IMG/VR virus record: IMGVR_UViG_3300025671_000533
Span: 1-23,692 of that record
Reading direction: 5' to 3' (one strand)
Length of the DNA: 23,692 nucleotides
From: a virus
In this document: positions 1 through 23,692 of the stretch, in pieces
How positions within the stretch are numbered: position 1 is the stretch's first letter
Layout of the letters: every line of letters starts with the position of its first letter
Program-made: the position numbers and the translations under genes
Notes under the pieces: generated by a model
Database searches by the model: none
The model's input: the letters and a program-made list of their open reading frames with translations, nothing else
Told to the model about the DNA's origin: nothing

Positions 1-114
1 CACAAAGACCCAATCGTTGCGTATCGTAGATATGTAATAAATGAAAAACACTATGCCAAGTGGGAACAGAACAGAGCTAAACCTACATGGTGGACTACTA
101 AGGAGGTAGCGTAA
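1..114 (+). CDS. C-terminal end of an unidentified protein (5' end outside window)
   Basis: The frame starting at base 1 is open for 37 codons and ends at TAA 112-114, two bases before the next start. The visible peptide is rich in basic and aromatic residues (RRYV, KHYAKW) and ends shortly after PTWW. The last codons contain the AGGAGG ribosome binding site of the next gene, which is consistent with a real gene end in a compact operon. I do not recognise the family, and too little is visible to assign a role. Confidence 0.6.
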   Translation, partial: HKDPIVAYRRYVINEKHYAKWEQNRAKPTWWTTKEVA

Positions 115-115
115 A

Positions 116-796
116 ATGAAATTTAAAATAATATTTAGTGCAGTAATGATAGCAATGATGGTTGCTATTGTTAGCTCAGTCAACATCACAATGGACAATA
201 TACAAAAAAATAAAGCAGGACTTACAAGGTTGAATAAATCTTTCCTGTCTCTCAGCGAAGAGTTTCAAAGCGTAGGTAGACAAGCAGAGTTAATAGAATC
301 TACTAGAGAGAGCTATAGAAATTCTTTGGTTGAGTTATCAAATAGATTAGATTCTATGGATGAAACAAACTCAGAAATCTATCGTATCTTAAATGAGTTA
401 GATGAGAAGTTAAACAAACCACCTATGCCTATTGTTTTAGAAAAACCTGTTGAACTTGAAACAACAGAAGAAATTGGAGTTAATGGAGGACTAGGTGTCC
501 TAACCGGAACTCAAATTGTTGGGCAGCCTGAAACAAAAGAACTTGAAGTTGTTCCTTGTCCTAAACCAAAGGCAACAAGGAGTTTTGATTCTTATCTTTC
601 TCGAATTACAATCAACAAAAAAATATCTTTTACTGTTATTTATGATGTTGTCTCTGGCCAAAGTACAAACACAAGGTACGATGGTGCAGTTCCAAGTAAA
701 CTAAAACGAGCAGTCGATAAATATATTTCTGAATTAGAATTTCCAGGAGAGATAACTGTACAAGGATGTACTCTACCTTTTACAATAAATATTTAA
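116..796 (+). CDS. Membrane-anchored coiled-coil protein with possible TonB-C-like C-terminus
   Basis: The 226-residue product has an N-terminal hydrophobic segment (about residues 4-22, after a short basic start), which would be a signal anchor placing the rest in the periplasm. Residues about 26-105 are polar and predicted helical, with heptad-like spacing of Leu/Ile, suggesting a coiled coil. A linker of about 45 residues follows, containing EKPVELETTEE and PCPKPK. The last 70 residues read as beta strand, SG-type turn, a helix around LKRAVDKYISELEF, and a final strand ending LPFTINI. This order resembles the C-terminal domain of TonB-family proteins, but the usual YP motif is absent and the match is by eye only. 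AGGAGG at 101-106 lies 9 bases before the ATG. It could instead be a structural or superinfection-related membrane protein. Confidence 0.75.
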   Translation: MKFKIIFSAVMIAMMVAIVSSVNITMDNIQKNKAGLTRLNKSFLSLSEEFQSVGRQAELIESTRESYRNSLVELSNRLDSMDETNSEIYRILNELDEKLNKPPMPIVLEKPVELETTEEIGVNGGLGVLTGTQIVGQPETKELEVVPCPKPKATRSFDSYLSRITINKKISFTVIYDVVSGQSTNTRYDGAVPSKLKRAVDKYISELEFPGEITVQGCTLPFTINI

Positions 797-806
797 GGAA
801 AATGAC

Positions 807-1022
807 ATGTATATTTATATGAACACAGAAAGCGAAACAAGAATTTTAACTCGTGATGAGTACAGAATTTTTTTAGATTTTACTCTTGATAACTATGAAG
901 ATATGTATTCAGAGAAGGTTGGTTATGAAGTAAATTATAATCCAAGAAAAGATAGTTTTACAGTCACATTACCATCTAATAATGTAATAAGTTTTGTTGA
1001 TTTATTCAACGAAAGGGGTTGA
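807..1022 (+). CDS. Small hypothetical protein (71 aa)
   Basis: This is a short, soluble-looking acidic and aromatic protein with no transmembrane segment and no motif I recognise. The middle (YEVNYNPRKDSFTVTLPSNN) looks like a beta hairpin. It starts 10 bases after the preceding gene, with a modest AAGGAAAA ribosome site overlapping that gene's stop. A second in-frame ATG lies at codon 5 and could be the real start. Its TGA stop (1020-1022) overlaps the -35 box of the promoter that drives the SSB gene, so it is the last gene of the upstream segment. Confidence 0.6.
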   Translation: MYIYMNTESETRILTRDEYRIFLDFTLDNYEDMYSEKVGYEVNYNPRKDSFTVTLPSNNVISFVDLFNERG

Positions 1023-1046
1023 CTTTTTAGTCAGCAAGTGTATAAT
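1019..1046 (+). promoter_or_regulatory. Sigma70-type promoter upstream of the SSB gene
   Basis: A -35 box TTGACT (1019-1024) and a perfect -10 box TATAAT (1041-1046) are separated by 16 bases. Transcription should start near 1053 and give a leader of about 30 bases before the SSB ATG at 1084, which has AGGAG at 1072-1076. The -35 overlaps the stop codon of the preceding gene. The two boxes lie in one of only two intergenic gaps above 50 bases in the window. It should be read by host RNA polymerase. Confidence 0.75.
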
Positions 1047-1083
1047 AACTAATGCAATAATGCCAAACCATAGGAGAAAATAA

Positions 1084-1521
1084 ATGGCAATACAACAAGG
1101 AATAGCCTATTGGGCTAGTGTAAGAACACCTAATACCAAGTTCGAACCCTGTTATACAGTGGACTTAGTAGTAAGTGATGAGGTGGCAAATGACTTTGAA
1201 AGTCGTGGCTTCAGGGTTAAAGACCTGATAGTCAATGATGAAGTTGTTGGTCGGTCTATTAACTTTAAAAGAAAAGTCAATGGTCCAAATGGAATGGTTC
1301 GTAAAGCACCATTACTAATGGATGCTGATAAAGTTCCAATGGATGAAAACGTTGGTAATGGTTCTAAGGTTAGAGTTCAATACAATGAGTGGGAAGCCAC
1401 TAATAAGTTTGGAACTTTCAAGGGCTTGGACTTTCAAGCTATGCAAGTAGAAGAATTAATTTCTTATAAAGCCGGAGACGGAGATGAGTTTGATTCTATC
1501 GAAGGTGGCGAGGAGTTCTAA
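1084..1521 (+). CDS. Single-stranded DNA-binding protein, T7 gp2.5-like
   Basis: The 145-residue product is of the size and layout of phage OB-fold SSBs of the gp2.5 type. The body is beta-rich with basic patches (NFKRKVNGPNGMVRKAP, residues about 60-77) and a FGTFKGLDFQAMQV strand pair. It ends in a strongly acidic tail, GDGDEFDSIEGGEEF, with a terminal Phe. In T7 the acidic, aromatic-terminated tail of gp2.5 docks onto the polymerase and helicase, so this protein probably coats ssDNA at the fork and coordinates the downstream gp4- and gp5-like proteins. It has its own promoter and a good AGGAG site, suggesting high expression. Assignment is by overall pattern rather than by an invariant motif. 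Confidence 0.8.
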   Translation: MAIQQGIAYWASVRTPNTKFEPCYTVDLVVSDEVANDFESRGFRVKDLIVNDEVVGRSINFKRKVNGPNGMVRKAPLLMDADKVPMDENVGNGSKVRVQYNEWEATNKFGTFKGLDFQAMQVEELISYKAGDGDEFDSIEGGEEF

Positions 1522-1818
1522 ATGATTATTACTATAAATAATGATGATGGTTCTACTACCTTTGATGTTAATAATATCAGCGATGATAGTATTAAACAAG
1601 AAGCTACTGTCATAGTACAAAAGGTAGGTAACCTACAAGTTATCATTGAAGCCTTAGACTTTGCAAGTCGTACACATCGTGCTAACTTAGAAGAACTTCT
1701 AAAAGATAGAGAGGAAGCAATCGTTGAAACAGCCCCTGCTCGTAATGAGAAAGGTCAGTTTGTTGGTGACGACCCTGATACTATTGAAGATGAATCTAAA
1801 GTAGTAAAAGAATCTTAA
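1522..1818 (+). CDS. Small acidic hypothetical protein (98 aa)
   Basis: The ATG follows directly on the TAA of the SSB gene, so the two are probably translationally coupled and share one transcript. The N-terminal half mixes beta strands and a helix (VQKVGNLQVIIEALDFASRT). The C-terminal third (residues about 75-98) looks disordered and acidic and carries NEKGQFV, a tail pattern I recognise from other phage hypothetical proteins. No catalytic motif is visible. Position between SSB and a terminator suggests an early replication accessory, but function is unknown. Confidence 0.75.
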   Translation: MIITINNDDGSTTFDVNNISDDSIKQEATVIVQKVGNLQVIIEALDFASRTHRANLEELLKDREEAIVETAPARNEKGQFVGDDPDTIEDESKVVKES

Positions 1819-1828
1819 TTCTAACCAT

Positions 1829-1867
1829 GCTAGGACACAGATTAAATTCTGTGCCTAGCTTTTTTTT
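1829..1867 (+). terminator. Factor-independent terminator-like hairpin
   Basis: The left arm GCTAGG-A-CACAG (1829-1840, one bulged A) pairs with CTGTGCCTAGC (1849-1859) around an 8-base AT loop, followed by eight Ts (1860-1867). This is a textbook intrinsic terminator for the plus strand. It closes the SSB and 98-aa gene transcript and sits 9 bases before the primase-helicase start, so it probably lets through only part of the transcription. Confidence 0.85.
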
Positions 1868-1876
1868 GGGTCAAAC

Positions 1877-3550
1877 ATGGAAAACAATTTAAAATTTGTA
1901 AAGTATCATCAGCCTTGTCCATCATGTGACAGTAGCGATGCCCTATCACTCAACGAGGATGGGTCTGGTAAATGTTTTAGTTGTCATAAGTTCTTTCCTA
2001 GTATTGATAAACAATCTACATTCAAATCAAACCAGGTAAAAACAAGTATGAAAGAAACAATAAAAGAACTGAATGCACATGGTGGTGTGTTCGCAAAGTT
2101 AACAGATAGAAACATAGCAAAAGAGACTGCTGAAAAGTATGGTGTCAAAGTTGTATATGACTCTAATGGTACGTTAGCTCAACATATATATCCTTTATAT
2201 ATTAACAATGAGCTTACGTCTAACAAAATTCGATACGTCAGAGATAAGAAATTTTCTTTTGATGTATCACCTAATGGTGTTGGACTTTTCGGTCAACAGT
2301 TATTCAAAGAGGGAGGTAAGTATCTTACCATAACGGAGGGAGAGTGCGATGCTATGGCAGCCTATGAACTACTTGGTAGTAAGTGGGCTGTCGTATCCGT
2401 TGTTAGAGGTGCAGCAGCAGCAGTAAAAGATATTAAAGAAAACCTTGAGTATGTAGAAAGCTTTGATAATGTTGTGCTTTGTTTTGATAAAGACAAACCG
2501 GGACAAGAAGCTGCTAAGAAAGTAGCTACCATATTAAAACCTGGTAAAGCCAAGATAGTAACTTTACCTAATGGTTACAAAGATGCTAACGACATGTTGA
2601 ACAAGGGACTCTTCAAAGAGTTTACTAGTTCTTGGTGGGATGCAAAGGTTTATACTCCTAGTGGTATCATTCGTGTATCAGAAAAACAATCTGAGTTTCT
2701 TAATCGTGAAAGAAAAGAAAGCATTCCCTATCCTTGGGAAGGTTTAAATAAAAAACTATATGGCTTGAGACAAGGAGAGCTCGTAACTTTAACGGGTGGA
2801 ACGGGTCTTGGTAAGTCTAGTATTACTAGAGAGCTTGAACATTGGTTAGTTAAAAACACTGATGATAATGTAGGTATCATAGCATTAGAAGAAGATTGGA
2901 AACGCACAGTTGATGGTATTCTTTCTATTGAAGCTAACGCTAGATTATACGTAGACCAAGAGAGAGATAAGTTTGATAAAGAAACTATCATGGATATGTT
3001 TGATAAGATATTTTCTAATGACAAAGTATTTATTCATGCTCACTTTGGAACGAATGAGATAGATGATATCTTTGCCAAGCTTAGATATCTCATTGTTGGA
3101 TGTGATTGCAAGTGGGTAGTTGTTGACCATCTACACATGCTAGTCAGTGCATTAGCAGAAGGAGATGAAAGAAGAGCCATTGATAATATTATGACTAGAC
3201 TGAGAAGTTTAGTTGAAGAAACCGGGGCCGGATTAATATTAGTATCTCACTTGAGAAGAGTTGATGGAAACAAAGGTCACGAAAACGGAGTTGAAGTAAG
3301 TCTCTCTCATCTTCGTGGGTCTAACAGTATAGGACAGTTGTCTGATTGTGTTATTGCACTTGAAAGAAACCAACAATCCGATGATGATTTAGAAGCGAGG
3401 ACAACAAAACTTCGTATACTTAAGTCAAGATATACAGGTGATGTAGGAATGGCTACATCTTTAGTGTATGATAAAGACTCTGGTCGTTTAACTGAATACT
3501 CTGATGCAGAGTTAATGAGCAATGAGGAAGAAACCTTAATGCCTTTTTAG
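1877..3550 (+). CDS. Primase-helicase, T7 gp4-like
   Basis: The 557-residue protein combines the two T7 gp4 activities: making RNA primers and unwinding DNA 5'-3' as a ring hexamer. The N-terminal zinc-binding domain has CPSC (C14, C17) and CFSC (C33, C36). The TOPRIM primase core includes ITEGECDA with Glu154. The RecA-like helicase has Walker A TGGTGLGKSS with Lys313, Walker B WVVVDHLHM around 415, and later motifs SHLRR and HLRGSNSIGQLSD. It ends MSNEEETLMPF: as in T7 gp4, an acidic tail ending in Phe that contacts the polymerase. No Shine-Dalgarno is visible before the ATG, which lies 9 bases after the terminator U-tract. An internal ATG at 2048 (codon 58) follows the zinc domain, where T7 starts its short form 4B. 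Confidence 0.95.
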   Translation: MENNLKFVKYHQPCPSCDSSDALSLNEDGSGKCFSCHKFFPSIDKQSTFKSNQVKTSMKETIKELNAHGGVFAKLTDRNIAKETAEKYGVKVVYDSNGTLAQHIYPLYINNELTSNKIRYVRDKKFSFDVSPNGVGLFGQQLFKEGGKYLTITEGECDAMAAYELLGSKWAVVSVVRGAAAAVKDIKENLEYVESFDNVVLCFDKDKPGQEAAKKVATILKPGKAKIVTLPNGYKDANDMLNKGLFKEFTSSWWDAKVYTPSGIIRVSEKQSEFLNRERKESIPYPWEGLNKKLYGLRQGELVTLTGGTGLGKSSITRELEHWLVKNTDDNVGIIALEEDWKRTVDGILSIEANARLYVDQERDKFDKETIMDMFDKIFSNDKVFIHAHFGTNEIDDIFAKLRYLIVGCDCKWVVVDHLHMLVSALAEGDERRAIDNIMTRLRSLVEETGAGLILVSHLRRVDGNKGHENGVEVSLSHLRGSNSIGQLSDCVIALERNQQSDDDLEARTTKLRILKSRYTGDVGMATSLVYDKDSGRLTEYSDAELMSNEEETLMPF

Positions 3551-3558
3551 GAATATTT

Positions 3559-5370
3559 ATGGAATTAGTTTTTGATATAGAAACAAATGGATTGCTTTTT
3601 GATTTCAAAGAAAAAGTTTGGGATGAGGAAGTTAAAAAGAACATTGAAATTATAAGACCGGCAGCTACAACTATCTTTTGTATTGTTGCTATAGACGAGA
3701 ATGACAATGTATATTCATTTGAACCCCATCAAATTGATGAGGGTATTAAATTTTTAGCTGAAGCTGATAAAATAATTGGTCATAATATTATTGGTTTTGA
3801 TATACCAGCTATTAAAAAACTTAAAGGGGTGGACCTGTATGAACATACAGAAGCTCTTGATACCTTGACCCTATCAAGACTTTTCCACCCCACCAGAGAG
3901 GGAGGTCATGGTATTGAAGCATGGGGTTATCGTTTAGGTGGTGTACAAAAAGTAGAGCATACAGATTGGACTCAGTATAGTCCGGAGATGTTAAAGAGAT
4001 GTCAAGTAGATACTGTTATAAATAAAAAAGTTCTTGCAGCACTAAGAAAAGAAAGTCTTGGATTTTCTAAACAATGCATTGAGCTTGAACATTCTGTTGC
4101 TAAAGTAATTGCTGACCAACATGTTAATGGTTTTTACTTTGATGAAAAGTCAGCAACCTTTTTACTTAGTTCTTTAAATAAAAGAAGAAAAGAAGTTGAA
4201 GAAGAAGTACATAGAACATTTAAACCTAAGTGGGTCGATGTTAAAGAAGTACAACCTAAACTTAAAAAAGATGGTGAGCTTTCTAAATCTGGTCTATCTA
4301 ATATAGAATACGAAGAACGAGTTAAAACAAAAGACCTTACTCCTTTTATGAGAAAAGAATTAAAAGAGTTTAACTTAGGTTCCCGTCAACAGATTGGAGA
4401 TTATCTAAAAGACTTTGGGTGGAAACCAAAACGTTTTACTCCAACGGGTCAACCTATTGTAGATGAGGGTACATTAAAACTAATAACTCATATCCCAGAA
4501 GCTAATTTAATAGCTGAGTATTTATTACTACAGAAAAGAGCAGCTCAAGTTGAGTCTTGGATAGATGCTGTTGAACTGACGGGTAAAACAGATAGTAGAG
4601 TACATGCTAGTGTTATAACATTAGGTACAATTACTGGTCGCATGGCACATAGAAGTCCCAACATGGCTCAAGTACCTGCTGTTTACAGTCCTTATGGTAA
4701 AGAGTGTAGGTCTTGTTGGACTGTACCAAGTGGATATAAACTTGTAGGTGTAGATGCAAGTCAATTAGAATTAAGAATGTTAGCACACTACATGGCTGAC
4801 GAGGATTATATAAATGAAATTATTAATGGAGACATTCACACGACTAACCAAAACCTTGCAGGACTTGAATCAAGAGACCAGGCAAAAACTTTCATCTATG
4901 CCCTCATTTACGGGGCCGGAGATGAAAAGATTGGAAGCGTTGTTGAAGGAAACAGAGAAGAAGGTAAGAGATTGCGAGAACGCTTTCTTAGTGGTAACCC
5001 TGCATTTAAATCTCTTAAAGGAAGGATTGAAAGAGCAGCAGGGAAAGGATTCCTCAAAGGGGTAGACGGTAGAAAAATATTCTTACGACACAAACATGCA
5101 GCATTAAATACTTTACTTCAGGGTGGTGGTTCTATCCTTATGAAACAAGGATTAGTCTTACTTGAAAAACTTTTAAAACTAAACACGATTGATTATAAGT
5201 TTGTTGCTAACATTCATGATGAGTGGCAGATAGAAGTTAAAGAATCTCAAGCAGAATTTACAGGTCAACTTGCTGTTGATAGTCTTATCAAAGCAGGTGA
5301 ACATTTAAAGCTTCGTTGTCCTATGGATGGTGAATACAAGATAGGAGAAAATTGGAGTGAAACACACTAA
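3559..5370 (+). CDS. polA: Family A DNA polymerase, T7 gp5-like, with 3'-5' exonuclease
   Basis: This is the 603-residue replicative polymerase. The exonuclease domain shows Exo I FDIETNGL (D6, E8), Exo II GHNIIGFDI (D81) and Exo III with D151, where the usual Tyr four residues earlier is Arg147. Polymerase motif A is VGVDASQLELRML (D399). Motif B is RDQAKTFIYALIYGAGDEKIG-like, with Tyr447 at the site equivalent to E. coli Pol I 762 and T7 Tyr526. Motif C is HDE at 553-555. Length is somewhat below T7 gp5 (704). It starts 8 bases after the primase-helicase stop with a weak AGGA site and overlaps the next gene by 14 bases. T7 gp5 uses host thioredoxin for processivity; I cannot tell whether this one does. 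Confidence 0.96.
   Translation: MELVFDIETNGLLFDFKEKVWDEEVKKNIEIIRPAATTIFCIVAIDENDNVYSFEPHQIDEGIKFLAEADKIIGHNIIGFDIPAIKKLKGVDLYEHTEALDTLTLSRLFHPTREGGHGIEAWGYRLGGVQKVEHTDWTQYSPEMLKRCQVDTVINKKVLAALRKESLGFSKQCIELEHSVAKVIADQHVNGFYFDEKSATFLLSSLNKRRKEVEEEVHRTFKPKWVDVKEVQPKLKKDGELSKSGLSNIEYEERVKTKDLTPFMRKELKEFNLGSRQQIGDYLKDFGWKPKRFTPTGQPIVDEGTLKLITHIPEANLIAEYLLLQKRAAQVESWIDAVELTGKTDSRVHASVITLGTITGRMAHRSPNMAQVPAVYSPYGKECRSCWTVPSGYKLVGVDASQLELRMLAHYMADEDYINEIINGDIHTTNQNLAGLESRDQAKTFIYALIYGAGDEKIGSVVEGNREEGKRLRERFLSGNPAFKSLKGRIERAAGKGFLKGVDGRKIFLRHKHAALNTLLQGGGSILMKQGLVLLEKLLKLNTIDYKFVANIHDEWQIEVKESQAEFTGQLAVDSLIKAGEHLKLRCPMDGEYKIGENWSETH
5346..5370 (+). repeat. Imperfect direct repeat, copy 1 (polymerase gene junction)
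   Basis: This 25-base stretch matches 5941-5965 at 20 of 25 positions by my alignment. It contains the 14-base overlap of the polymerase end and the next gene's start, GTGAAACACACTAA, which corresponds to ATGAAACCCACTAA in copy 2. Both copies encode an ETH-stop in one frame and a start plus Lys in the other. Confidence 0.65.
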
Positions 5371-5965
5371 TAATTTTAAATGGAAATACACGGGTAGAGA
5401 TTCTAATTACAAACCAAAATTTACAAGACAGCTAGAAGAACCTTTAGATTATGTTTTATCATTTTTAGACAGTAATAATATTAAATATATTATTGGAAAA
5501 AGTAAAAGTTTAGCTATTTATAGTCGGTTACATAAATTTAGATATTACTACACTACAGGTAAGTGGTCACTAAATTCTGGTAATAAAAACATTAAAGTAA
5601 ATAATAAAAAATATTATTTATCTAAAGGTATTGAAGATTTTTATGAAAGATTTTTTATTAAAAATTTAGAAAAAGAAAATAATATATCTTATATTAAAAA
5701 AATTGGTCTTAAAAATTATGGTTACCCTCGATATGAATATGATTATATTCGTACAGTAATTGGTGACGATAAATCTAAAGCTAGAAATTTTTACTTACTT
5801 TACTATCATTACAAGGATGAAAAGTTTTGTCCGTTTATAAATAGAGAAGGTATAAAATGGATTCAAGATACAGATGAATATATTAACTTTGAAAAAAATA
5901 AAGATACTATACAAGCTTATGTTGATGTATTATTAAATAAAGGAAATTCAAATGAAACCCACTAA
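5357..5965 (+). CDS. AT-rich hypothetical protein (202 aa), probable inserted cassette
   Basis: The start is GTG at 5357, inside the last codons of the polymerase gene, with AGGAG about 9 bases upstream. The product is rich in Lys, Asn, Ile and Tyr (for example KFRYYYTTGKWS and NKKYYLSKGIEDFYERFF) and its DNA is visibly richer in A+T than its neighbours. I do not recognise a domain; the segment FRYYYTTGKW recalls a pattern found in marine phage hypothetical proteins. Both ends overlap neighbours by 14 bases in near-identical sequence, so the gene may have been inserted between the polymerase gene and the following nuclease-like gene. No membrane segment or nuclease motif is visible. Confidence 0.75.
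   Translation: MKHTNNFKWKYTGRDSNYKPKFTRQLEEPLDYVLSFLDSNNIKYIIGKSKSLAIYSRLHKFRYYYTTGKWSLNSGNKNIKVNNKKYYLSKGIEDFYERFFIKNLEKENNISYIKKIGLKNYGYPRYEYDYIRTVIGDDKSKARNFYLLYYHYKDEKFCPFINREGIKWIQDTDEYINFEKNKDTIQAYVDVLLNKGNSNETH
5941..5965 (+). repeat. Imperfect direct repeat, copy 2 (nuclease-like gene junction)
   Basis: Second copy of the 25-base junction at 5346-5370. It holds the ribosome site AGGAAA, the ATG at 5952 of the next gene and the TAA at 5963-5965 of the preceding one. It differs from copy 1 at five positions, one of which changes GTG to ATG. Confidence 0.65.
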
Positions 5966-6380
5966 AGAAAACAGAAAAAAGTTTGATATAGACTTAGAGT
6001 ATGGTACAATCAGAGAAGATAAAGTAGCAGAAATGCTTACCAATAAAAAGGTAGAAGTTAAATCTGAACGTGGTATGTGGATGAAGACGGGCAACATAGC
6101 AATTGAATATCAAAGCTATGGCAAACCCTCTGGCATCAAAGCAACTGAATCAGATTATTGGTTTCACAATCTTTGTATTGGAGACAATGAATATTGTACA
6201 CTTGTTTTTAAGACTGATGTTCTTAGAACTATTGTTGATAAACTTGATACATTTAGAACTGTATCTGGTGGAGACCATAACGCAAGTCAAATGTACTTAG
6301 TTAATTTACAAAAGCTTTTCTCATCTGATGTGATTAAAGCATTTAAGGAGTTTGAAGATGGCAAAAAAGAAAACAGTTGA
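5952..6380 (+). CDS. PD-(D/E)XK-like nuclease or resolvase-like protein
   Basis: The 142-residue product has a short N-terminal helix with acidic residues (EYGTIREDKVAEML, 16-29), a strand carrying VEVKSE (E35-x-K37) and a following strand NIAIEYQ (E52), then GKPSGIKATESDYW. This order (helix Glu, ExK strand, then GN..IE and a conserved GI..T..DYW) is what I would expect from small Holliday-junction-resolvase-like members of the PD-(D/E)XK superfamily. The usual Asp of the first strand is not obvious. It starts with ATG 8 bases after AAAGGA and overlaps both neighbours (14 bases upstream, 23 downstream). A role in recombination, branch cleavage or host DNA breakdown is inferred. Confidence 0.65.
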   Translation: MKPTKENRKKFDIDLEYGTIREDKVAEMLTNKKVEVKSERGMWMKTGNIAIEYQSYGKPSGIKATESDYWFHNLCIGDNEYCTLVFKTDVLRTIVDKLDTFRTVSGGDHNASQMYLVNLQKLFSSDVIKAFKEFEDGKKENS

Positions 6381-7233
6381 TACAGTTGTAGAAGATATTT
6401 ACTCTACTATTTCAGCCTTAACCAAAGGCCAGGATATAAAACTAACCGATAAAGACTTAAAAGTATTTGGTGAAGACATGGCTGATGCCTTAAAACAATG
6501 GGCAACACCAAGAGGTGCAGATAAAATTAATATTAATACTCTTCGTATGTCTAACATCGGTAAACCTCAACGACAGTTGTGGTATGATATGAACTTAAAG
6601 AAAGAAGGAATCACTGAGTTTGAACCTAGTACTTTGATTAAGTTTTTATACGGACACTTGTTAGAAGTATTGGTTTTATTTTTCGTTAAACTATCTGGAC
6701 ATAAGCTAGACTCACAACAAAAAGAAGTATCAGTTAGTGGTATCAAAGGTCACATGGATTGTAAGATAGATGGTGAAGTAGTAGATGTAAAGACTGCTTC
6801 TGGTTTTGCTTTTAAGAAATTTAAAGATGGTACTCTTGTAGAGTCAGATACCTTTGGATACTTAGCCCAACTTGCTGGGTATGAAGAAGCTGAACAAACA
6901 TCTAAAGGTGGGTTCTTGGTTTTAAATAAAGAATCCGGAGAGCTAACTTTATTTAAACCAGAAGAGTTAGATAAACCTAACATCAAAGATAAAATTAAAA
7001 CAGTCAAGAAAATTATTAAAAGAAAAACACCACCTATCTTTTGTTATGACCCTGTTCCCGAAGGTAAGAGTGGTAATATGAAACTTGCAAGAGAATGTAA
7101 TTGGTGTCCTTACAAACATGAGTGTCATAAAGAATCAAATGATGGTCAAGGCTTACGAGTTTTTGAATATGCTAAAGGGCCAGTTTACTTTACTGATGTA
7201 CAAAAAGTTCCAAATGTTCAGGAGATACTATGA
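6358..7233 (+). CDS. PD-(D/E)XK exonuclease, RecB/Cas4-like
   Basis: I place the start at ATG 6358 (291 residues), 7 bases after AAGGAG at 6345-6350; an in-frame TTG at 6352 has no such support. The nuclease core shows GHLLEVL (H100, E103), GHMDC (D134), VDVKTAS (D143-x-K145) and QLAGY (Q171), the full RecB-type set. The C-terminus has four cysteines, one in FCYDP then CNWCPYKHEC, like the iron-sulfur patch of Cas4 and AddB. The N-terminal box reads IGKPQRQLWYD and lacks the usual Cys, so the cluster may differ or be absent. In T7-like marine phages such proteins occupy the place of gp6 exonuclease, degrading host DNA and processing recombination ends. It overlaps the next gene by 4 bases (ATGA). 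Confidence 0.88.
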   Translation: MAKKKTVDTVVEDIYSTISALTKGQDIKLTDKDLKVFGEDMADALKQWATPRGADKININTLRMSNIGKPQRQLWYDMNLKKEGITEFEPSTLIKFLYGHLLEVLVLFFVKLSGHKLDSQQKEVSVSGIKGHMDCKIDGEVVDVKTASGFAFKKFKDGTLVESDTFGYLAQLAGYEEAEQTSKGGFLVLNKESGELTLFKPEELDKPNIKDKIKTVKKIIKRKTPPIFCYDPVPEGKSGNMKLARECNWCPYKHECHKESNDGQGLRVFEYAKGPVYFTDVQKVPNVQEIL

Positions 7234-7499: not shown

Positions 7500-7644
7500 T
7501 TTAGAAAAAGCAATCATAGCTATGGGTGAAGTATTAAAAGAAGAAGGTGAATCACTAGATGGTTTTGATAACCAAACACTACAAAACTTATCAACCTTGT
7601 TAGCTGCACATGTTGAAGACAAACTAGATAGGGTAGTTCACTAA
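7489..7644 (+). CDS. Very small hypothetical protein (51 aa)
   Basis: ATG at 7489 to TAA 7642-7644 gives a 51-residue acidic, fully helical-looking product (MKSDLEKAIIAMGEVLKEEG at the start, DNQTLQNLSTLLAAHVEDK in the second half). AAGGA about 8 bases upstream, an 11-base overlap with the gene before, and a TAATG overlap with endonuclease I after it support real, coupled translation. Without it, 144 bases would be the only sizeable gap in this operon. Function is unknown. Confidence 0.7.
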   Translation: MKSDLEKAIIAMGEVLKEEGESLDGFDNQTLQNLSTLLAAHVEDKLDRVVH

Positions 7645-8081
7645 TGCCTAAGAGAGTACCAAGAAAACCCAGACCTAAAAAGGTTAATGTTCCTAAAGGC
7701 TATGATAGTACATGGGAATATAATATACACCAAACAATTTTAAAAGATTGGGCACATCACTTTGAAGCTATCAAATATATTATTGACAAAAAATATGAAG
7801 TAGATTTTGTTAAAACATTTCAAGATAAAACTATTTTACTAGAAGCTAAAGGCCGGTTCTGGGACCACGCTGAGTATAGTAAATATGTTTGGATTAGAAA
7901 AGCTTTACCAGAACATATGGAGTTAGTCTTCTTATTTCAAAAGCCTTTCTCTCCTATGCCAGGAGCCAAGGTAAGAAAGGATGGAACAAAACGAACCCAT
8001 GCTGAGTGGGCTGAAACAAATAATTTTAGATGGTACAGTGAAGATACACTACCGGATGATTGGAGAAGTGATGAGCTATAA
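7644..8081 (+). CDS. Endonuclease I, T7 gp3-like Holliday junction resolvase
   Basis: The 145-residue product matches T7 endonuclease I (149 aa) in length and active-site order: Glu25 in YDSTWEYNIHQTI, Asp54 in KYEVDF, and Glu67-x-Lys69 in LLEAKGRF (T7 E20, D55, E65, K67). The N-terminus is very basic (PKRVPRKPRPKK), which would help bind branched DNA. The family acts as a domain-swapped dimer that cuts four-way junctions and other branched DNA, trimming replication intermediates before packaging and helping degrade host DNA. Start ATG 7644 overlaps the preceding stop by one base, and its end overlaps the next gene by 11 bases. Confidence 0.92.
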   Translation: MPKRVPRKPRPKKVNVPKGYDSTWEYNIHQTILKDWAHHFEAIKYIIDKKYEVDFVKTFQDKTILLEAKGRFWDHAEYSKYVWIRKALPEHMELVFLFQKPFSPMPGAKVRKDGTKRTHAEWAETNNFRWYSEDTLPDDWRSDEL

Positions 8082-8343
8082 ATTTAACGAAGGATATATA
8101 CTACAAGAACTTAAAGCATACATTGATGGTACATATAATGAACACTATGCTTCTGATAAATACCAAGCAACAGATATAATTGTTGACTCTGGACATGGGG
8201 AAGGTTTTTGTATTGGAAATATTATGAAGTACGCTAAACGCTACGGAAATAAAGAAGGAAAGAACAGAAAAGATATATTAAAAATATTACACTATGGTAT
8301 AATTATGTTAAACATACACGACATGGAAACAAACAATGATTGA
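8071..8343 (+). CDS. DUF3310-like small protein
   Basis: I start this gene at ATG 8071 (90 residues), with GGAG at 8062-8065; a longer frame from 7981 would lie almost wholly inside endonuclease I and has no ribosome site. The pattern GFCIGNIMKYAKRYGNKEGKNRKD followed by ILKILHYGIIML (given here in two pieces) fits the DUF3310 family, in which a conserved GN-KY-RY core and a Lys-rich helix recur in many phages. These are sometimes labelled nucleotide kinase, without evidence that I can confirm here. Its place next to ribonucleotide reductase would suit a nucleotide-related role. It overlaps nrdA by 8 bases. Confidence 0.75.
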   Translation: MSYKFNEGYILQELKAYIDGTYNEHYASDKYQATDIIVDSGHGEGFCIGNIMKYAKRYGNKEGKNRKDILKILHYGIIMLNIHDMETNND

Positions 8344-10231
8344 AAATAAAACAGGAATTAAAGAATACCTCGGTATTAAAATTAATTACAGTAATGAAAC
8401 TCTACTAGATAAGTTTAGTCTTGACACAGTAAAAGATAGATACTTATGGGATAAAGAAACACATGCACAAGAAGCATTTGCTAGAGCAGCAGTCTTCGGA
8501 GCAACTTACAAAGGGCATACAGATTTTGAATTAGCTCAAAGATTGTATCACTATGCTTCTAACCTTTGGTTTATGTTCTCAACACCGATACTTTCTAACG
8601 GAGGAACAACAAGAGGTCTTCCTATTAGTTGTTTTTTAAATTATGTTGGAGATTCAATTGATGAGTTAACTGACCACTTTAAAGAAAACGCAAACCTCGC
8701 AAGTTCTGGTGGTGGCATTGGTGGATATTGGGGAGATATTAGAAGTAATGGTATTTCTACTTCTAGAGGAAGTAAATCTACAGGCTCTATTCCTTTTATG
8801 CATGTCGTTGATGCAGAAATGTTAGCCTTTAATCAAGGAACAACAAGACGTGGTAGTTATGCAGCGTATACAAATATTTCTCATCCGGAGATTGAAGAGT
8901 TTATTAACATGCGTAAAGAATCTGGTGGTGATATCAATCGAAAGAATCTTAATCTTCACAACGGTATCAACATTACCAATGAGTTTTTAAAAGCTGTTGA
9001 AGAAGATGCAGACTTTAGATTGATAGACCCTAAAACTAATGAAGCTGTTAAGATAGTAAAAGCTAGAGACTTATGGTGGCAAATATTAAACGCTAGGGCA
9101 GAAACAGGTGAACCTTACATGGTTAATATAGATACATGTAATGAAGCTTTACCTAAAAACCAAAAAGATTTAGGTTTGGAAATCAAGCAGAGCAATCTTT
9201 GTTCTGAGATTACTCTTCCTACAAACGAAGAAAGAACAGCAGTATGTTGTTTATCTTCAGTAAACTTAGAACACTTTGATGATTGGTCAGAGAATCCAAT
9301 GTTTATAGATGATTTAATAACCATGTTAGATAATGTACTTCAACACTACATTGATAACGCTATTGATACAGATAATTTAGGAGAATACAATGCAAATTTT
9401 AAAAGGTTCAAAAAAAATATTAAAGAAGGTAAAAAAAGTTTTACTAAATCTGCCTACTCTGCTTACAGAGAAAGGTCGTTGGGTCTCGGTGCGATGGGCT
9501 TCCATGCGTATCTCCAATCACGCAACATACCTTTTGAAGGTATCTATGCTACAGGGTTTAATTACAAAGCTTTTAAACACATTAAAAAACACGCAGTGGA
9601 AGCAACTAGACGACTTGCTGATGAACGTGGTGAGTCACCTGATATCAACGGTAGTGGCTCTCGTAATGCTCATTTACTCGCTGTTGCACCTAACGCTTCT
9701 TCTAGTATTATTTGTGGTGGTACATCTCCTTCGATTGAGCCCTATCGTGCTAACGTTTATACGCACAAAACTCTCAGTGGTTCTTTCCAAGTTAAAAATA
9801 AATACTTAGAAGAGTTACTGCAAGATAAAGGAATAAAAAAACAAGAGTTGGTAGATGTTTGGAAAGACATTGCAGCTCATGAAGGTTCAGTACAGCATCT
9901 TGATATATTAACTGATGAAGAAAAAGAAGTATTTAAAACTGCTAATGAGATAGACCAGATATGGATTGTAGAACATGCAGCTAAACGTCAAGAGTTTATA
10001 TGTCAATCGCAGTCTGTTAATCTTTTTTTTACACTTCCAAGTGCAACTGAGTCACAAGAAGTTCATGATGAATACATGCAGTACGTTAGTGATGTTCATT
10101 GGTATGGGATGAACAAACTTAAATCTTTATACTACTTCCGGTCTAACGCTGCTCGTAGTGTAGAAAATGTAAATCTTAAAGTTCAGCGTATTAAATTAGA
10201 TGATGCTGAATGTATCGCATGTGAGGGATAA
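8336..10231 (+). CDS. nrdA: Ribonucleotide reductase class Ia, large (alpha) subunit
   Basis: This 631-residue subunit reduces ribonucleoside diphosphates to deoxyribonucleotides for phage DNA synthesis. Visible residues are Cys99 in PISCFLNY (E. coli C225), the NLCSE box with Asn287, thiyl Cys289 and Glu291 (E. coli N437, C439, E441), Cys304/305 in CCLSSVNL (E. coli C462), and a C-terminal CIACEG tail (C626, C629) that would relay electrons from thioredoxin-like donors. It is shorter than E. coli NrdA (761) because the N-terminal ATP-cone is missing, so feedback inhibition by dATP through that domain should not occur. It overlaps the DUF3310-like gene and is followed immediately by a small gene and nrdB. 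Confidence 0.96.
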   Translation: MIENKTGIKEYLGIKINYSNETLLDKFSLDTVKDRYLWDKETHAQEAFARAAVFGATYKGHTDFELAQRLYHYASNLWFMFSTPILSNGGTTRGLPISCFLNYVGDSIDELTDHFKENANLASSGGGIGGYWGDIRSNGISTSRGSKSTGSIPFMHVVDAEMLAFNQGTTRRGSYAAYTNISHPEIEEFINMRKESGGDINRKNLNLHNGINITNEFLKAVEEDADFRLIDPKTNEAVKIVKARDLWWQILNARAETGEPYMVNIDTCNEALPKNQKDLGLEIKQSNLCSEITLPTNEERTAVCCLSSVNLEHFDDWSENPMFIDDLITMLDNVLQHYIDNAIDTDNLGEYNANFKRFKKNIKEGKKSFTKSAYSAYRERSLGLGAMGFHAYLQSRNIPFEGIYATGFNYKAFKHIKKHAVEATRRLADERGESPDINGSGSRNAHLLAVAPNASSSIICGGTSPSIEPYRANVYTHKTLSGSFQVKNKYLEELLQDKGIKKQELVDVWKDIAAHEGSVQHLDILTDEEKEVFKTANEIDQIWIVEHAAKRQEFICQSQSVNLFFTLPSATESQEVHDEYMQYVSDVHWYGMNKLKSLYYFRSNAARSVENVNLKVQRIKLDDAECIACEG

Positions 10232-10411
10232 ATGAAACAATCAGAATTTGATAAGGTGTTTAGTCAGAAGTTTTCTGGCTTTACAAGTAGGATGTGGTTA
10301 GATTATTGTGATGAAAATAATAATCCATTCGCAAAAACAAAAGATTACGCAGGATACGTAATTGAAAATTTTAAATATTTAGTTAAGAAATTTAACAAGG
10401 AGAACATATGA
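10232..10411 (+). CDS. Small protein between nrdA and nrdB (59 aa)
   Basis: The ATG abuts the nrdA TAA and the TGA (10409-10411) overlaps the nrdB ATG in an ATGA junction. The product is basic and aromatic, beginning MKQSEFDKVFSQKFSGF and ending VKKFNKENI, probably two or three helices, with a single Cys in WLDYCDE. AAGGAG in its last codons serves nrdB. Tight packing on both sides argues for a translated gene. I do not recognise a family; its position suggests a link with the reductase, for example a partner or regulator, but that is inference. Confidence 0.7.
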   Translation: MKQSEFDKVFSQKFSGFTSRMWLDYCDENNNPFAKTKDYAGYVIENFKYLVKKFNKENI

Positions 10412-11391
10412 GCTTACTACACCCAAGAGACTACTACAAACCTTTTGAATACCCATGGATGTACGAGTATTACAAGTTACAAAATCAAATGCACTGGATG
10501 CCAGAGTCAACACCATTACATACAGATGTAAAAGATTGGCAAGATATTACAGATTCAGAACGACATTTATTGACACAAATATTCAGATTGTTTACTCAAT
10601 CAGATGTTGATGTGGGTGCAGGTTATATTGACAAGTACATGCCTTTGTTTAAAAAACCTGAAGCAAGAATGATGATGAGTTCTTTTGCTAACATGGAATC
10701 AATACATCAAGATGCTTATAGTTTGCTTCTTGATACAGTTGGTATGCCTGAGATAGAGTATAAAGCTTTCTCAGAGTATGAAGAAATGGCTAACAAACAT
10801 GATTATGTTGGAGATTTCAAACCTCTTAAGTCTGATAAAAAAACTATTGCTAAAACTTTAGCAGTCTATTCAGCCTTTACAGAAGGACTACAGTTGTTCT
10901 CAAGCTTTGCAATCTTGTTAAACTTCCCAAGGTTTGGTAAGATGAAAGGTATGGGACAGATAGTTACCTATTCAATTAAAGATGAGTCTATGCACGTTGA
11001 AGCCATGACTAAATTGTTCAGAGAGTTTATTAAAGAAAACATAGAAATATGGACCGATGATTTTAAAGGAGAACTCTACCAAATTTGTAGAGAAATGGTA
11101 GAGTTAGAAGATAAATTCTTGGATTTAGTTTTTGAAATGGGAGACCTTGAGGGTCTAACAAAAAAAGATATGTATGCTTACAACAGATACATAGCTGATA
11201 GAAGATTGTTACAGCTCGGTCTTAAAACAAATTATGACCAACGTGAGAATCCTTTAGAATGGATAGACGAAGTAATGGGTGTAGAGCATCAAAACTTTTT
11301 TGAGGGCCGGGCAACTTCTTATATGAAGGCTGGGTTAAGAGGTAGACAAGATAAAATAACTTTTTCAAAATTGGAGAGTAATAATGGTTAA
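10408..11391 (+). CDS. nrdB: Ribonucleotide reductase class Ia, small (beta) subunit
   Basis: The 327-residue subunit houses the di-iron centre that generates the tyrosyl radical. Ligands appear in order: Asp66 (QSDVDVG), Glu97 and His100 (MESIHQDAY), Glu159 (FTEGLQ), Glu193 and His196 (DESMHVE). The radical tyrosine is Tyr104, at the same spacing as E. coli E115-H118-Y122. All ligands of the standard class Ia site are present, so it is not a manganese-only or radical-less variant by this criterion. AAGGAG lies a few bases before the ATG. It forms the holoenzyme with the upstream NrdA and overlaps the following small gene by 8 bases. Confidence 0.96.
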   Translation: MSLLHPRDYYKPFEYPWMYEYYKLQNQMHWMPESTPLHTDVKDWQDITDSERHLLTQIFRLFTQSDVDVGAGYIDKYMPLFKKPEARMMMSSFANMESIHQDAYSLLLDTVGMPEIEYKAFSEYEEMANKHDYVGDFKPLKSDKKTIAKTLAVYSAFTEGLQLFSSFAILLNFPRFGKMKGMGQIVTYSIKDESMHVEAMTKLFREFIKENIEIWTDDFKGELYQICREMVELEDKFLDLVFEMGDLEGLTKKDMYAYNRYIADRRLLQLGLKTNYDQRENPLEWIDEVMGVEHQNFFEGRATSYMKAGLRGRQDKITFSKLESNNG

Positions 11392-11602: not shown

Positions 11603-11607
11603 CTGTT

Positions 11608-12039: not shown

Positions 12040-12040
12040 A

Positions 12041-12277: not shown

Positions 12278-12279
12278 TA

Positions 12280-17400: not shown

Positions 17401-17403
17401 TAA

Positions 17404-19611: not shown

Positions 19612-19613
19612 AA

Positions 19614-20222: not shown

Positions 20223-20225
20223 ATC

Positions 20226-21455
20226 TTAAACTCCCATCCTAATAGTTGATTGTGGAATTGGTACAGAGTTAGCTCTTAAAGCTTGACCAAAACTAAACGG
20301 GTCTCCACCATAAAAACCAGCATCTGCAAAGCCTTGCATATTTTGAGGACCCATATAACCTGCTTGAGCAAATTGGTCAGCATAAGCTCTAGTATAATCA
20401 TTAGATGTAGTAACGTCTGTAGATAGTGGAGTTACTTCTATTGGTTGCTGATATCCTGTACCCTCATCTGAAGTATCTCCTTGTAATGCTGCTGCTCCAC
20501 CCGCAACTTTACTTAACTGCATTGCTTCTTTTTGTAATACATCAAACTGTGTAGCTGCTGGATTATCTGCAACCATATCTATATAGCCTTTATTAACTCT
20601 TTGTAAATTTCTTTGATAATTCATTAACCTTTTGTTTTGATATATTTGGTCTTTTGTTAAAGTTCCTCTAGCAACAGTTGTAGTTTGAGGAGTTAATTCA
20701 ACTAACTCAAGGTCGTTGTCTCCAATATAAGATACTTTTTTATCAAAACCAGTAATAACATCTACAGTCTGTCCTTGTGATTTAACTAAATCAAGATTAG
20801 GTTTAGGTATATCAACATTTTCAAAAGATAAATTTAAGTCTTTAGCTTTTAGTGGGTCAGGAGTTGTAATCGCTGTGGTAGACGGTCTTAATAATGAAGA
20901 GTCAGTTTTTAAAGCAACGTTAGCTTCCACAGTTTTAGGAACTCCACTATCAGTATATCCTTTTGTTTGTAAGTCTTCACCAAGTTTTGTAGCATCTGCC
21001 ATAGCAGTATCGGGAGTAATGTTTGCTGTAGGTAATCCTACTTTCATTCTAAAGTCGTCTAGCTTTCTTCCTACAAAGTTTGATAGCTTATCTGATGCTC
21101 CTTCTACATATCCAGCAGTTCCCGGTCTTGCAAAAGAACCTCCGGTTACTTTATTTAAAGTACCACTTACTAAGTCTGTAACTTTTCCATACACACTTCC
21201 AACAGCATTACCTGCAACACGAATACCATTCATGACAGCCCCTAAAGGACCACTGAGTCCTTGAGCCCACGTGCCAAACGTTGACCACGCAGCTCCCAGC
21301 CCCGGCAGCATAAGAGTAAGAGCAAGTGTACCTATTGGACCAAGCTTACCAAAAGCTTTACCAATTTCACCCAAGCCTTTCTTTAAAGCTCTACCTGGAT
21401 TTTTAAGTACTTTCTTAATTCCTTTAAATGTTTTTTTTATAAATTTCTTAAACAT
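20226..21455 (-). CDS. Putative ejection protein with cationic amphipathic N-terminus (409 aa)
   Basis: I place the start at ATG 21455, with AAAGGAG a few bases upstream between this gene and the preceding stop; an upstream in-frame TTG at 21482 would overlap that stop and has no ribosome site. The product begins MFKKFIKKTFKGIKKVLKNP, a lysine-rich amphipathic helix of about 38 residues, then a hydrophobic stretch (about 40-60, GTLALTLMLPGLGAAW) and Gly-rich repeats of GKV and GNAVGSVYG type. The rest is polar and low in predicted structure, ending QSTIRMGV. Such an N-terminus suggests interaction with membranes or with DNA, fitting a virion protein released during DNA entry. I do not recognise a catalytic domain. 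Confidence 0.75.
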   Translation of the reverse strand: MFKKFIKKTFKGIKKVLKNPGRALKKGLGEIGKAFGKLGPIGTLALTLMLPGLGAAWSTFGTWAQGLSGPLGAVMNGIRVAGNAVGSVYGKVTDLVSGTLNKVTGGSFARPGTAGYVEGASDKLSNFVGRKLDDFRMKVGLPTANITPDTAMADATKLGEDLQTKGYTDSGVPKTVEANVALKTDSSLLRPSTTAITTPDPLKAKDLNLSFENVDIPKPNLDLVKSQGQTVDVITGFDKKVSYIGDNDLELVELTPQTTTVARGTLTKDQIYQNKRLMNYQRNLQRVNKGYIDMVADNPAATQFDVLQKEAMQLSKVAGGAAALQGDTSDEGTGYQQPIEVTPLSTDVTTSNDYTRAYADQFAQAGYMGPQNMQGFADAGFYGGDPFSFGQALRANSVPIPQSTIRMGV

Positions 21456-21465
21456 AGTTTCTCCT

Positions 21466-23692
21466 TTAACCTGTTGGGTCAAATAATGCTAAAAAGTTTT
21501 CTAGTCTAGTCATATAGGTCGGACCTTTTAAAGCTGAATTTTCACCTTGCATACCTGCTACAGCTATATTCGTTTCTCTGTTAGCTGCATTTTCTGCAGA
21601 CTTCCAAATATAATCAAACTCATCACGTACTTCTTGCCATAAAGCAGCTTGTGCTTGAGTTGTAATACCATAAGCTTGTTGAGCATTAAGCATATTAATT
21701 TGTTGTTGAGCTGCAGTATTAGCTTTAGTAATACCTCTTCTCCACTGAACATTACTTTGTTCAATAACTAAAGAGTTTTGAGCATTAAACTGTTCTCTAG
21801 CAAAAGTTTGTTGTGAGTTGTATTGGTCTACACTAGCTGCTAATTGTGCATTAAATTTATTTACATCTGTTTCTCGTTGAGCTCTTCTAGCTTCTGCTTG
21901 GTTTGCTTGTACAGCATTAAACTGTTGCATAGCATCATTACGTTGAGCATTGTTTAATTTAACTTGAGTATTTAAATTTGTCATAAACTGCTGTGTTTGA
22001 TTTTCACTAGCAGCATTAAATTGTTTTGCTGCATTTTCTGCTGCTTGATTACTCAACAGTACTTGTTGTTCTTGTTGAGCTCGTAAAACATTTGTTTGTT
22101 GTTTTGCATTTAAGTTAGTCATATCCATTTGTAGGAATGCTTGAGCATTTTGTATTTGAGATTTCTGATAAAAATCTGCTTCTGCTAAATTAGCTTGAGA
22201 CATAAGTAAAGCATTTTGAACTGTAGATTGTTGGTCAAAGTTTGCTTCTGTTATTCCTACAGTTTGTAAGAACTTACTGTTAGATAATGCTGTTTGTTGG
22301 TCAGCATTAAACTGAGCCATGTCCATTTGAAATACTGTTTGTGCGTTTTGTAGTCCTGTTTGTTGAGCTCTTGCAGCATTTGCTTCTGCTTCTTGAGCTT
22401 CAATAGATTTTTGTTGTCCTACACTAGCTTGTATAGCTTGAGCATTTGCTTGAGCTAAAGGCATAGCTGATGTTATAATAGCATTGAACAAGGCATCTCT
22501 ACCTACAGTAGATGCAGACATACCACGTTGAGCTAACATTTTTTCTACTGATGCAACAGCAGGTCTAGCCCATGTAGGAATCTTACCTTCTTCAATACCA
22601 TTAATTAATGTATCTAACTGATTAGAGACTAATGCTTCTTCTGGAAGCCCTTCAATAATTCCTCGTTGAGTTTCACTAAACTCCATTAGCCTAGCTTCTA
22701 AAGATTCGGGGTCATTACCAAGCTCTGTTATATCTTCTTCACTTAAACCTGCATTAGTTAATTGTTTTTTAGCTCTTGTAACTCTTGCTAAAGAAGAACC
22801 AACATTTTCTGCAGCAGTAGCTTTAGCTTCGGGACTTAAAACACCTACAACTCTTTCAGTTAATGCACCTGGTATAATTTCTACTTCTGCACCTTCAATA
22901 GGTTTAACTCTATCTACTTGAGCAGCTTGAGCTATAGCTTCATCTGATACTTGACCTTGAGCAGCTTCTAAGTCTGGAGCTTTATCAATCTGAGCAACAT
23001 CTTCAATTTTTGAAGTTGTAATAGGTTGTGGTGCTCCAACATCGGGAGCTCTTACTCCTTGTCTAACTTGTTCGTCTGCACCAACTCTAGCTTGATATTC
23101 TGCTGAGTCTAATGGTATTCCTGTCGGGTCTATTTTAAATTTAGGGTCTTCTTTGTCAATAATTTCATCAGCACTTACAGTAGCTGTAGCAGCTTCTGCT
23201 TTTAAACCTAATTCTTCTATTCCAAGTTTACCTGTAGCTATATCCTCTTGACGTTTAGCAGACTCATCAACTCTAAATTCTCTTTCTCTTGCAGCAGGAC
23301 TTACAGTACCCGATGGAGATTCACTAATAGGAGTAGGTATAGTTGGAACATCTCTTGGTGCTGGCGTAGGTGCAGGAGTAGGTGCTGACGTAGGTGCAGG
23401 AGTCGGTGCTGGCGTAGGCGCAGGAGTAGGTGCTCCGGGAATATTACCATAGTCAAAGCCACCCCCCGGAGGTCCATAACCACCTCTATCTAAGTCACCC
23501 CTATTGTTTTCTCTATTTTGTCTAATAGTTTCAGCACGAACATTTCTAGTTTCTAATACTGGTGCAGGTGTTGGAGCTGGTCTAGGTGCCGGTGTTGGAG
23601 CTGGTCTAGGTGCCGGTGTTGGAGCTGCTACCGGTTGAGGTGCAGGTCGATAAACTGGAGCAGGTCTAGGAGCTGGGGTTGGTGCCGGAGTT
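21466..23692 (-). CDS. Long helical Gln/Asn/Ala-rich virion protein with Pro-Ala linkers (N-terminus outside window)
   Basis: The frame ending at 21466 stays open to the window edge, giving at least 741 visible residues. An internal ATG at 22686 is only codon 336 of the visible part: the upstream frame (NDPESLEARL before it) is continuous and has no start-site signal. Residues 1-45 and about 88-112 are (T/R)PAP-type repeats. An Arg/Gly-rich insert (RGGYGPPGGGFDYG) lies between them. Then comes an Ala-rich helical region, and from about 420 to 690 a Gln/Asn/Ala-rich array with recurring QFNA-like units at about 22-residue spacing, as in long coiled coils of the 11-residue type. The C-terminus ends LENFLALFDPTG. 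It is most likely a structural or ejection component; the real function is not evident. Confidence 0.8.
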   Translation of the reverse strand, partial: TPAPTPAPRPAPVYRPAPQPVAAPTPAPRPAPTPAPRPAPTPAPVLETRNVRAETIRQNRENNRGDLDRGGYGPPGGGFDYGNIPGAPTPAPTPAPTPAPTSAPTPAPTPAPRDVPTIPTPISESPSGTVSPAAREREFRVDESAKRQEDIATGKLGIEELGLKAEAATATVSADEIIDKEDPKFKIDPTGIPLDSAEYQARVGADEQVRQGVRAPDVGAPQPITTSKIEDVAQIDKAPDLEAAQGQVSDEAIAQAAQVDRVKPIEGAEVEIIPGALTERVVGVLSPEAKATAAENVGSSLARVTRAKKQLTNAGLSEEDITELGNDPESLEARLMEFSETQRGIIEGLPEEALVSNQLDTLINGIEEGKIPTWARPAVASVEKMLAQRGMSASTVGRDALFNAIITSAMPLAQANAQAIQASVGQQKSIEAQEAEANAARAQQTGLQNAQTVFQMDMAQFNADQQTALSNSKFLQTVGITEANFDQQSTVQNALLMSQANLAEADFYQKSQIQNAQAFLQMDMTNLNAKQQTNVLRAQQEQQVLLSNQAAENAAKQFNAASENQTQQFMTNLNTQVKLNNAQRNDAMQQFNAVQANQAEARRAQRETDVNKFNAQLAASVDQYNSQQTFAREQFNAQNSLVIEQSNVQWRRGITKANTAAQQQINMLNAQQAYGITTQAQAALWQEVRDEFDYIWKSAENAANRETNIAVAGMQGENSALKGPTYMTRLENFLALFDPTG
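23357..23428 (-). repeat. Three tandem 24-base repeats encoding PAPT units
   Basis: Units at 23357-23380, 23381-23404 and 23405-23428 differ at one to three positions. Each is itself two diverged 12-base units. On the minus strand each 12-mer encodes Pro-Ala-Pro-Thr, with one Ser replacing Pro. They are more GC-rich than the surroundings and in frame, so they lengthen a stiff linker in the protein. Confidence 0.9.
23561..23632 (-). repeat. Three tandem 24-base repeats encoding TPAPRPAP units
   Basis: Units at 23561-23584, 23585-23608 and 23609-23632 are nearly identical; the third diverges only in its last few bases. Each encodes eight residues of the TPAPRPAP type on the minus strand. More diverged PAP units continue to the window edge, so the array may be longer. 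Confidence 0.9.

Follow-up and report, generated by a model that had tools for sequence, protein, structure and literature searches.

Host DNA is broken down to feed replication by EndoII and EndoIV in bacteriophage T4 and by endonuclease I and the gp6 exonuclease in T7; T4 marks its own DNA by modified cytosine, and the T7 enzymes are not known to require a short palindrome. Chloroviruses of the PBCV-1 type encode site-specific endonucleases capable of destroying the DNA of the host, their own being protected by methylation. Chlorovirus restriction-modification (R-M) systems are described in PMC7248222. The tetranucleotide GATC is missing or rare in phiX174 and T7, where this is explained by enterobacterial Dam/MutH (PMC5014478). 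The window analysed here, the whole 23,692 bp stretch of IMG/VR virus record IMGVR_UViG_3300025671_000533, is a linear part of a larger marine virus genome, and GATC was found to be absent from it. The absence of GATC, its association with one gene, its independence of the host, and the fold and motif of the gene family were computed in this study. The gene is an open reading frame (ORF) of 142 residues at positions 5952 to 6380 of the plus strand, which was matched by the phrog_13596 profile (E=3.6e-42 across 130 residues; a family of unknown function in PHROG). By its profile match, its AlphaFold2 model and the tracking of GATC absence by its presence, it is very probably a small PD-(D/E)XK endonuclease that cuts unmethylated GATC, the phage being immune through the loss of its own GATC and not through methylation. 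The most likely source of the selection pressure on GATC is a nuclease encoded by the phage, and not the host.

Machine counting of both strands gave 0 GATC over positions 1 to 23692, which confirmed the absence read by hand in the first-pass annotation. The roughly 75 sites estimated there under independence agreed with the computed 75.6, and 67.7 sites were expected under a second-order Markov model and 53±7 from dinucleotide shuffles. Codon-preserving shuffles of the window genes (n=300), proposed there as a check, contained 55.5±4.9 GATC (minimum 41, z -11.2). AATT (173 vs 268) and TCGA (14 vs 35) were also found to be under their codon-shuffle values, neither being near zero and AATT being close to its Markov expectation (ratio 0.89), and the sole further tetramer missing was CGCG, with an expectation of just 1.3. 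The avoidance of GATC by the choice of Asp codons, noticed earlier by eye, was seen again in the 8 long ORFs checked, where the Asp codon before C was GAC in 41 cases and GAT in 0 (elsewhere GAT 257, GAC 58), and ATC was never used for Ile after G. GANTC, described as frequent and hence not avoided, was indeed present at 63 sites. Other tetramers deviate too in this AT-rich genome, as base composition, codon usage or an assembly artefact might produce, but such an origin is ruled out by the codon-preserving shuffles and by the count in phage XacN1 given below; independent isolates, prophages and metagenome contigs also agree.

The relatives examined were 80 polymerase homologue loci from IMG/VR (62-99% identical), for which DNA polymerase A of the window (3559 to 5370, plus strand), the left neighbour of the nuclease gene and 52% identical to that of pelagiphage HTVC115P, was used. 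The loss of GATC was found to be shared by most of them and to be two-state: 65 loci contained 0 or 1 GATC and the other 15 contained 4 to 30, ranging from about one fifth of expectation to full expectation, which suggests a discrete cause inside the phages. The phrog_13596 gene was present in every GATC-free locus covering the site and in 0 of the 15 GATC-containing loci, and where no gene was called in a zero-GATC locus (8 cases), the locus ends at, inside or before the gene. In the GATC-containing loci covering the junction, the interval between polymerase and exonuclease was occupied by other genes, several of which belong to nuclease families (T5orf172/GIY-YIG, recombination endonuclease VII) and further ones of which are nuclease-like by eye only. 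The replacement of the nuclease by GIY-YIG/T5orf172, endonuclease VII or resolvase-like genes in GATC-containing relatives (L035, L037, L038, L019, L058, L057 and L075) marks the interval as a nuclease-swapping site.

On a polymerase tree built from 87 genomes, namely IMG/VR loci, isolates and Roseobacter phages without the gene, 69 members were gene-bearing and GATC-free and 18 were gene-less and GATC-containing; none combined the gene with GATC and none lacked both. Gene and GATC state each required 10 changes and changed together; the positions of long branches deep in the tree are uncertain. Independent pairs on the well-supported branches were concordant in 6 of 6 cases (sign test p=0.031, the lowest value possible with six pairs), and 10 pairs were obtained using all branches. 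Sister phages about 70% identical in polymerase were found to switch GATC state along with the gene.

Other genes of the window were tried as the cause and rejected. Those for polymerase, primase, single-stranded DNA-binding protein, exonuclease, the endonuclease I-like protein, DUF3310 and ribonucleotide reductase are also present in GATC-containing relatives. A 202-residue ORF with no assigned function, located between polymerase and nuclease (5357 to 5965, plus strand), occurs only in the closest relatives of the window; being present in just 7 of the 65 GATC-free loci, it cannot explain the loss of GATC.

Other words were also found to be depleted among the relatives. GGCC was fully absent (0 vs 5-18 expected) in L015, L017, L021-L023, L025, L037, L047, L048, L050, L061, L065 and L078, regardless of GATC state, and ACGT and GTAC were strongly depleted in L041-L046, L049 and L055. 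These depletions possibly represent further gene-word pairs or host R-M.

The carriers among isolates, counted as observed/expected GATC in up to 50 kb, were found to contain no GATC: HMO-2011 (SAR116 host) 0/156, HTVC115P 0/144, HTVC103P 0/150, HTVC019P 0/96, HTVC011P 0/81, HTVC031P 0/73, HTVC109P 0/68 and Bylgja 0/76. When site loss was tested against the host, the phages of Roseobacter FZCC0023 and of HTCC1062 were divided by the gene and not by the host. CRP-143, which infects FZCC0023 and contains the gene, had 0/133 GATC, whereas the gene-less phages CRP-118, CRP-113 and CRP-114 on the same host had 182/207, 75/175 and 123/199, respectively, and the gene-less HTVC010P on HTCC1062 had 131/139. 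GATC is ordinary in the host, 96/101 being present in 40 kb of a Pelagibacter chromosome, and gene-bearing prophages stood out in Pelagibacter genomes as stretches of at least 10-20 kb free of GATC, next to flanks that contain it; the nuclease would have to be silent in these prophages. In HTVC115P the nuclease gene (L083, 6675-7058) was located upstream of the polymerase rather than after it, with a lysozyme-annotated gene on either side, which suggests independent mobility of the gene.

Restriction by hosts is the usual cause of palindrome avoidance, and phages escaping DpnII/MboI-type R-M systems that cut unmethylated GATC would be expected to avoid the site; the depletion of GGCC, ACGT and GTAC in some relatives is what host R-M would give. 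As the source of GATC loss this explanation is nevertheless very unlikely: it fits poorly with same-host phages that differ in GATC state by one phage gene, the sister phages switch with that gene, the carriers span hosts from SAR11, SAR116, Roseobacter and Xanthomonas, and the avoidance in XacN1 is near absolute and single-motif. SAR11 genomes have also been reported to be without R-M systems (PMC9516812). The strong pressure against GATC proposed in the first-pass annotation was upheld, but its suggested source, host restriction or a methyl-directed system, fits poorly, since phages of the same host differ by gene. Escape from Dam/MutH mismatch repair or from control by Dam, which has been proposed for phiX174 and the T7-like enterobacteriophages, has a precedent in the GATC-free phiX174 genome, in which the motif affects the mutation rate via mismatch repair (PMC5014478). 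This origin is extremely improbable here: no Dam above the cut-off was found in the 10 carrier genomes examined and no D12 methyltransferase in XacN1, GATC is retained by phages of the same hosts that lack the gene, and the theory predicts no tie to one phage nuclease gene.

In a 2022 study GANTC was found to be depleted in about half of the pelagiphages (PMC9516812). GAATC, a form of GANTC, was near-absent (0-1 vs 14-27) in HTVC019P, HTVC011P and HTVC031P (L085, L086 and L087). The published GANTC depletion in pelagiphages could have a phage-encoded cause too.

Distant homologues, about 26-46% identical to other members, were found in C75C1, C72C1 and XacN1. C75C1 contained 0/108 and C72C1 0/121 GATC (observed/expected), and the jumbo phage XacN1 of Xanthomonas citri contained 0 GATC in all 384,670 bp, where 1,441 were expected and the next lowest tetramer ratio was 0.71. 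Close relatives of XacN1 without the gene were sought as a control and were not found. In C75C1 the nuclease gene directly adjoins a cytosine-type DNA methyltransferase gene (L096, 16131-17923), yet the genome contains zero GATC, and C72C1 also has a cytosine-type DNA methyltransferase gene, yet zero GATC. No methyltransferase adjoining the nuclease gene was found among the ORFs of the window, HMO-2011, HTVC115P, HTVC103P and HTVC019P.

When IMG/VR was searched with the nuclease, zero GATC was found in 157 of 160 loci, followed by 72 of 76 more. These loci were pooled with the earlier ones and with the isolates, and duplicates were removed on the basis of the gene itself, using its protein and the initial 300 bp of its reading frame. 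Some related contigs still count separately under this criterion, which gave 273 distinct gene-bearing loci (3.47 Mb, one altered clade excluded). Zero GATC was found in 269 of them, and 13 GATC were present against 8,908 expected from the Markov model of each locus. The excluded clade (L159, L314, L315 and L316) has normal GATC, with 93 against about 62 expected. In its gene copy the motif, TGN in most members (VEVKRCTGAIYNVFVEYE), was found to be changed and the GGD loop to contain an insertion, which would fit a loss or change of specificity. No new target word could be assigned to this clade, in which many words are depleted. Some members with TNN, TKN, TGR or TGK at the TGN motif are still GATC-free, so the glycine and asparagine of the motif alone are not decisive.

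The nuclease was aligned in sets of 21, 56 and 29 members, which were numbered by the residues of the window protein. Across the alignments, E35-x-K37, E52, S60-G61 and G107-D108 were found to be invariant, followed by the invariant or near-invariant D14, L15, E22 and T46-G47-N48. The E35-V-K37 of the window, the E-x-K of the proposed active site, is encoded at 6054 to 6062 (plus strand, as for the other two motifs); T46-G47-N48, which is replaced in the single clade that regained GATC, is encoded at 6087 to 6095; and G107-D108, whose loop contains the insertion in that clade, is encoded at 6270 to 6275. The D-x(n)-E-x-K pattern was present in the Bacteroidota, XacN1 and L179 forms, in the Bacteroidota ones via an extra hairpin. 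The AlphaFold2 model of the window protein had a predicted local distance difference test (pLDDT) score of 86 and a predicted template modelling (pTM) score of 0.76, and that of a Bacteroidota homologue had a pLDDT of 92 and a pTM of 0.86. In Foldseek the Bacteroidota model was matched to NhoI and Eco15I (probability 0.82-1.0, best E 2.4e-3), followed by DpnI, NaeI, BglI and Holliday resolvases (Hjc). Through this homologue model, the family is predicted to have the PD-(D/E)XK fold. No match of the nuclease to a restriction endonuclease family, including DpnII/MboI/Sau3AI, was found in Pfam, NCBIfam, PADLOC or PDB sequences.

Since the closest folds include the methylation-dependent NhoI, Eco15I and DpnI, and since cleavage itself is deduced, the protein might recognise GATC otherwise, as a nickase, as a DpnI-like enzyme for methylated GATC or as a protein that binds GATC and blocks replication or packaging. 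This is very unlikely, because both the E-x-K, which is invariant, and the nuclease fold point to cleavage and because in carrier hosts without Dam methyl-dependent cutting would create no selection.

In Bacteroidota, a nuclease homologue was found with a DUF6996/DUF6997-like protein on one side and an N6_N4-type DNA methyltransferase on the other in L267 (9352-11222), L269 (3926-6855) and L272 (8995-11126), the DUF6996/DUF6997 assignment being a Pfam match in L269 and a likeness by eye in L267 and L272. A Dam-family methyltransferase is also next to the cassette in L269, and in L271 the homologue stands alone. PADLOC models were matched in these cassettes by the methyltransferases only. The cassette is likely an undescribed R-M system, and it resembles an R-M locus whose nuclease phages could have taken. 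The genomes of L267, L269 and L272 were found to be GATC-poor (0/172, 27/147 and 6/88, respectively), as was that of L271 (27/233), and other palindromes are scarce too in the Bacteroidota genomes with the homologue. A 69 kb sample (L294-L298) of G001, the Cytophagales genome of L267, contained 0 GATC (172 expected), 0 CTAG, 1 CCGG and 1 GGCC, and is a bacterial chromosome purged of several palindromes.

In the proposed mechanism, of which we infer the cleavage at GATC, the expression timing and the purpose, the product of ORF 5952-6380 would be expressed together with the replication genes and would cut double-stranded DNA at unmethylated GATC, as the near-total absence of the site suggests. 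The host chromosome, in which GATC recurs roughly every 400 bp and, in these hosts, is unmethylated, would be fragmented, and the DNA of gene-less rival phages would probably be cut too. The fragments could feed phage DNA synthesis via the neighbouring exonuclease and ribonucleotide reductase. No protecting methyltransferase was found in the phage, which would be immune because its own genome offers no GATC target. The purpose is probably the destruction of host DNA, the exclusion of competitors being considerably less likely and any other purpose less likely again. It is quite likely that a solitary GATC-specific endonuclease serves here as a weapon that tells self from non-self by base sequence alone, as a widespread phage strategy in which genomes of up to 385 kb are kept purged of one tetranucleotide across many phage lineages and host phyla, and in which loss or alteration of the nuclease lets GATC return.

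Several points weigh against the cutting of GATC by this nuclease as the cause. The basis is sequence and predicted structure, and the association gives no direction, so the gene might settle only in genomes that are already GATC-free. The short phage forms are without the hairpin that bears the classic PD Asp in the Bacteroidota forms, the Foldseek E-values are no better than 2e-3 (at a probability of up to 1.0), and the window model gave weak matches to type II enzymes, mainly PvuII and MspI. HTVC008M, which infects HTCC1062, contained 24/130 GATC in its first 50 kb, where the gene was not found, so GATC can be depleted for other reasons as well. L164 contained 9 GATC and L363 contained 2 downstream of a gene that appears intact, those of L164 all lying to one side, and one GATC each was present in L133 (at the contig end) and L053. 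In Bacteroidota, genomes with the methyltransferase are also GATC-poor, so the methyltransferase need not match GATC.

The plus strand of the window was found to contain, in order, primase-helicase, polymerase, Cas4-type exonuclease, endonuclease, nrdA and nrdB. The Cas4-domain exonuclease (6355 to 7233; phrog_1990, E=1.3e-51) is the right neighbour of the nuclease gene and is followed by a T7 endonuclease I-like endonuclease (phrog_945, 7644 to 8081); both are present in genomes with or without GATC. The large subunit of ribonucleotide reductase, for nucleotide supply (8336 to 10231), and the small subunit (10408 to 11391) were assigned by homology to the annotated NrdA and NrdB of HTVC115P. 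The large minus-strand genes are probably structural, and an ORF that runs off the window end (23301-23691, minus strand) contains a PAPTPAP-type proline-rich repeat run.

In the open-access literature searched, with subscription and unpublished work outside the scope, no prior report was found of the function of the nuclease gene or of the gene-word link, nor of GATC in connection with XacN1, pelagiphages or an orphan phage endonuclease. The analysis offers a specific cause for the complete disappearance of a tetranucleotide from ocean phages that are among the most abundant, and assigns a likely function and target to the unannotated family phrog_13596. Word avoidance, usually read as a trace of host R-M, may stem from the phage's own weapon, and the search for phage genes that coincide with a missing word is suggested as a general method for finding nucleases and their specificities. 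The nuclease may also explain the takeover of host DNA and the exclusion of rivals by marine phages.

Compared with the type II PD-(D/E)XK enzymes PvuII, MspI, DpnI, NhoI and Eco15I, the nuclease is alike in its small size, invariant E-x-K, predicted fold and implied short palindromic target, but its gene is placed in the phage replication cluster, no adjacent cognate GATC methyltransferase is present in the phage genomes inspected, and self-protection would be by sequence. The DpnII/MboI R-M systems share the implied target, and the Bacteroidota homologues likewise adjoin DNA adenine methyltransferases; the nuclease differs in having no Pfam or NCBIfam restriction-family match, and the phages keep the nuclease only. 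The T4 and T7 nucleases are alike as phage breakers of host DNA, the window also having its own endonuclease I-like gene. In phiX174 and T7 GATC is likewise missing or rare, whereas here a phage gene is the proposed cause, in hosts without detected Dam. The chloroviruses are alike in having a virus-encoded site-specific endonuclease and differ in that methylation shields their DNA; the new element here, as far as was found, is that the phage would be protected by the removal of the site from its entire genome.

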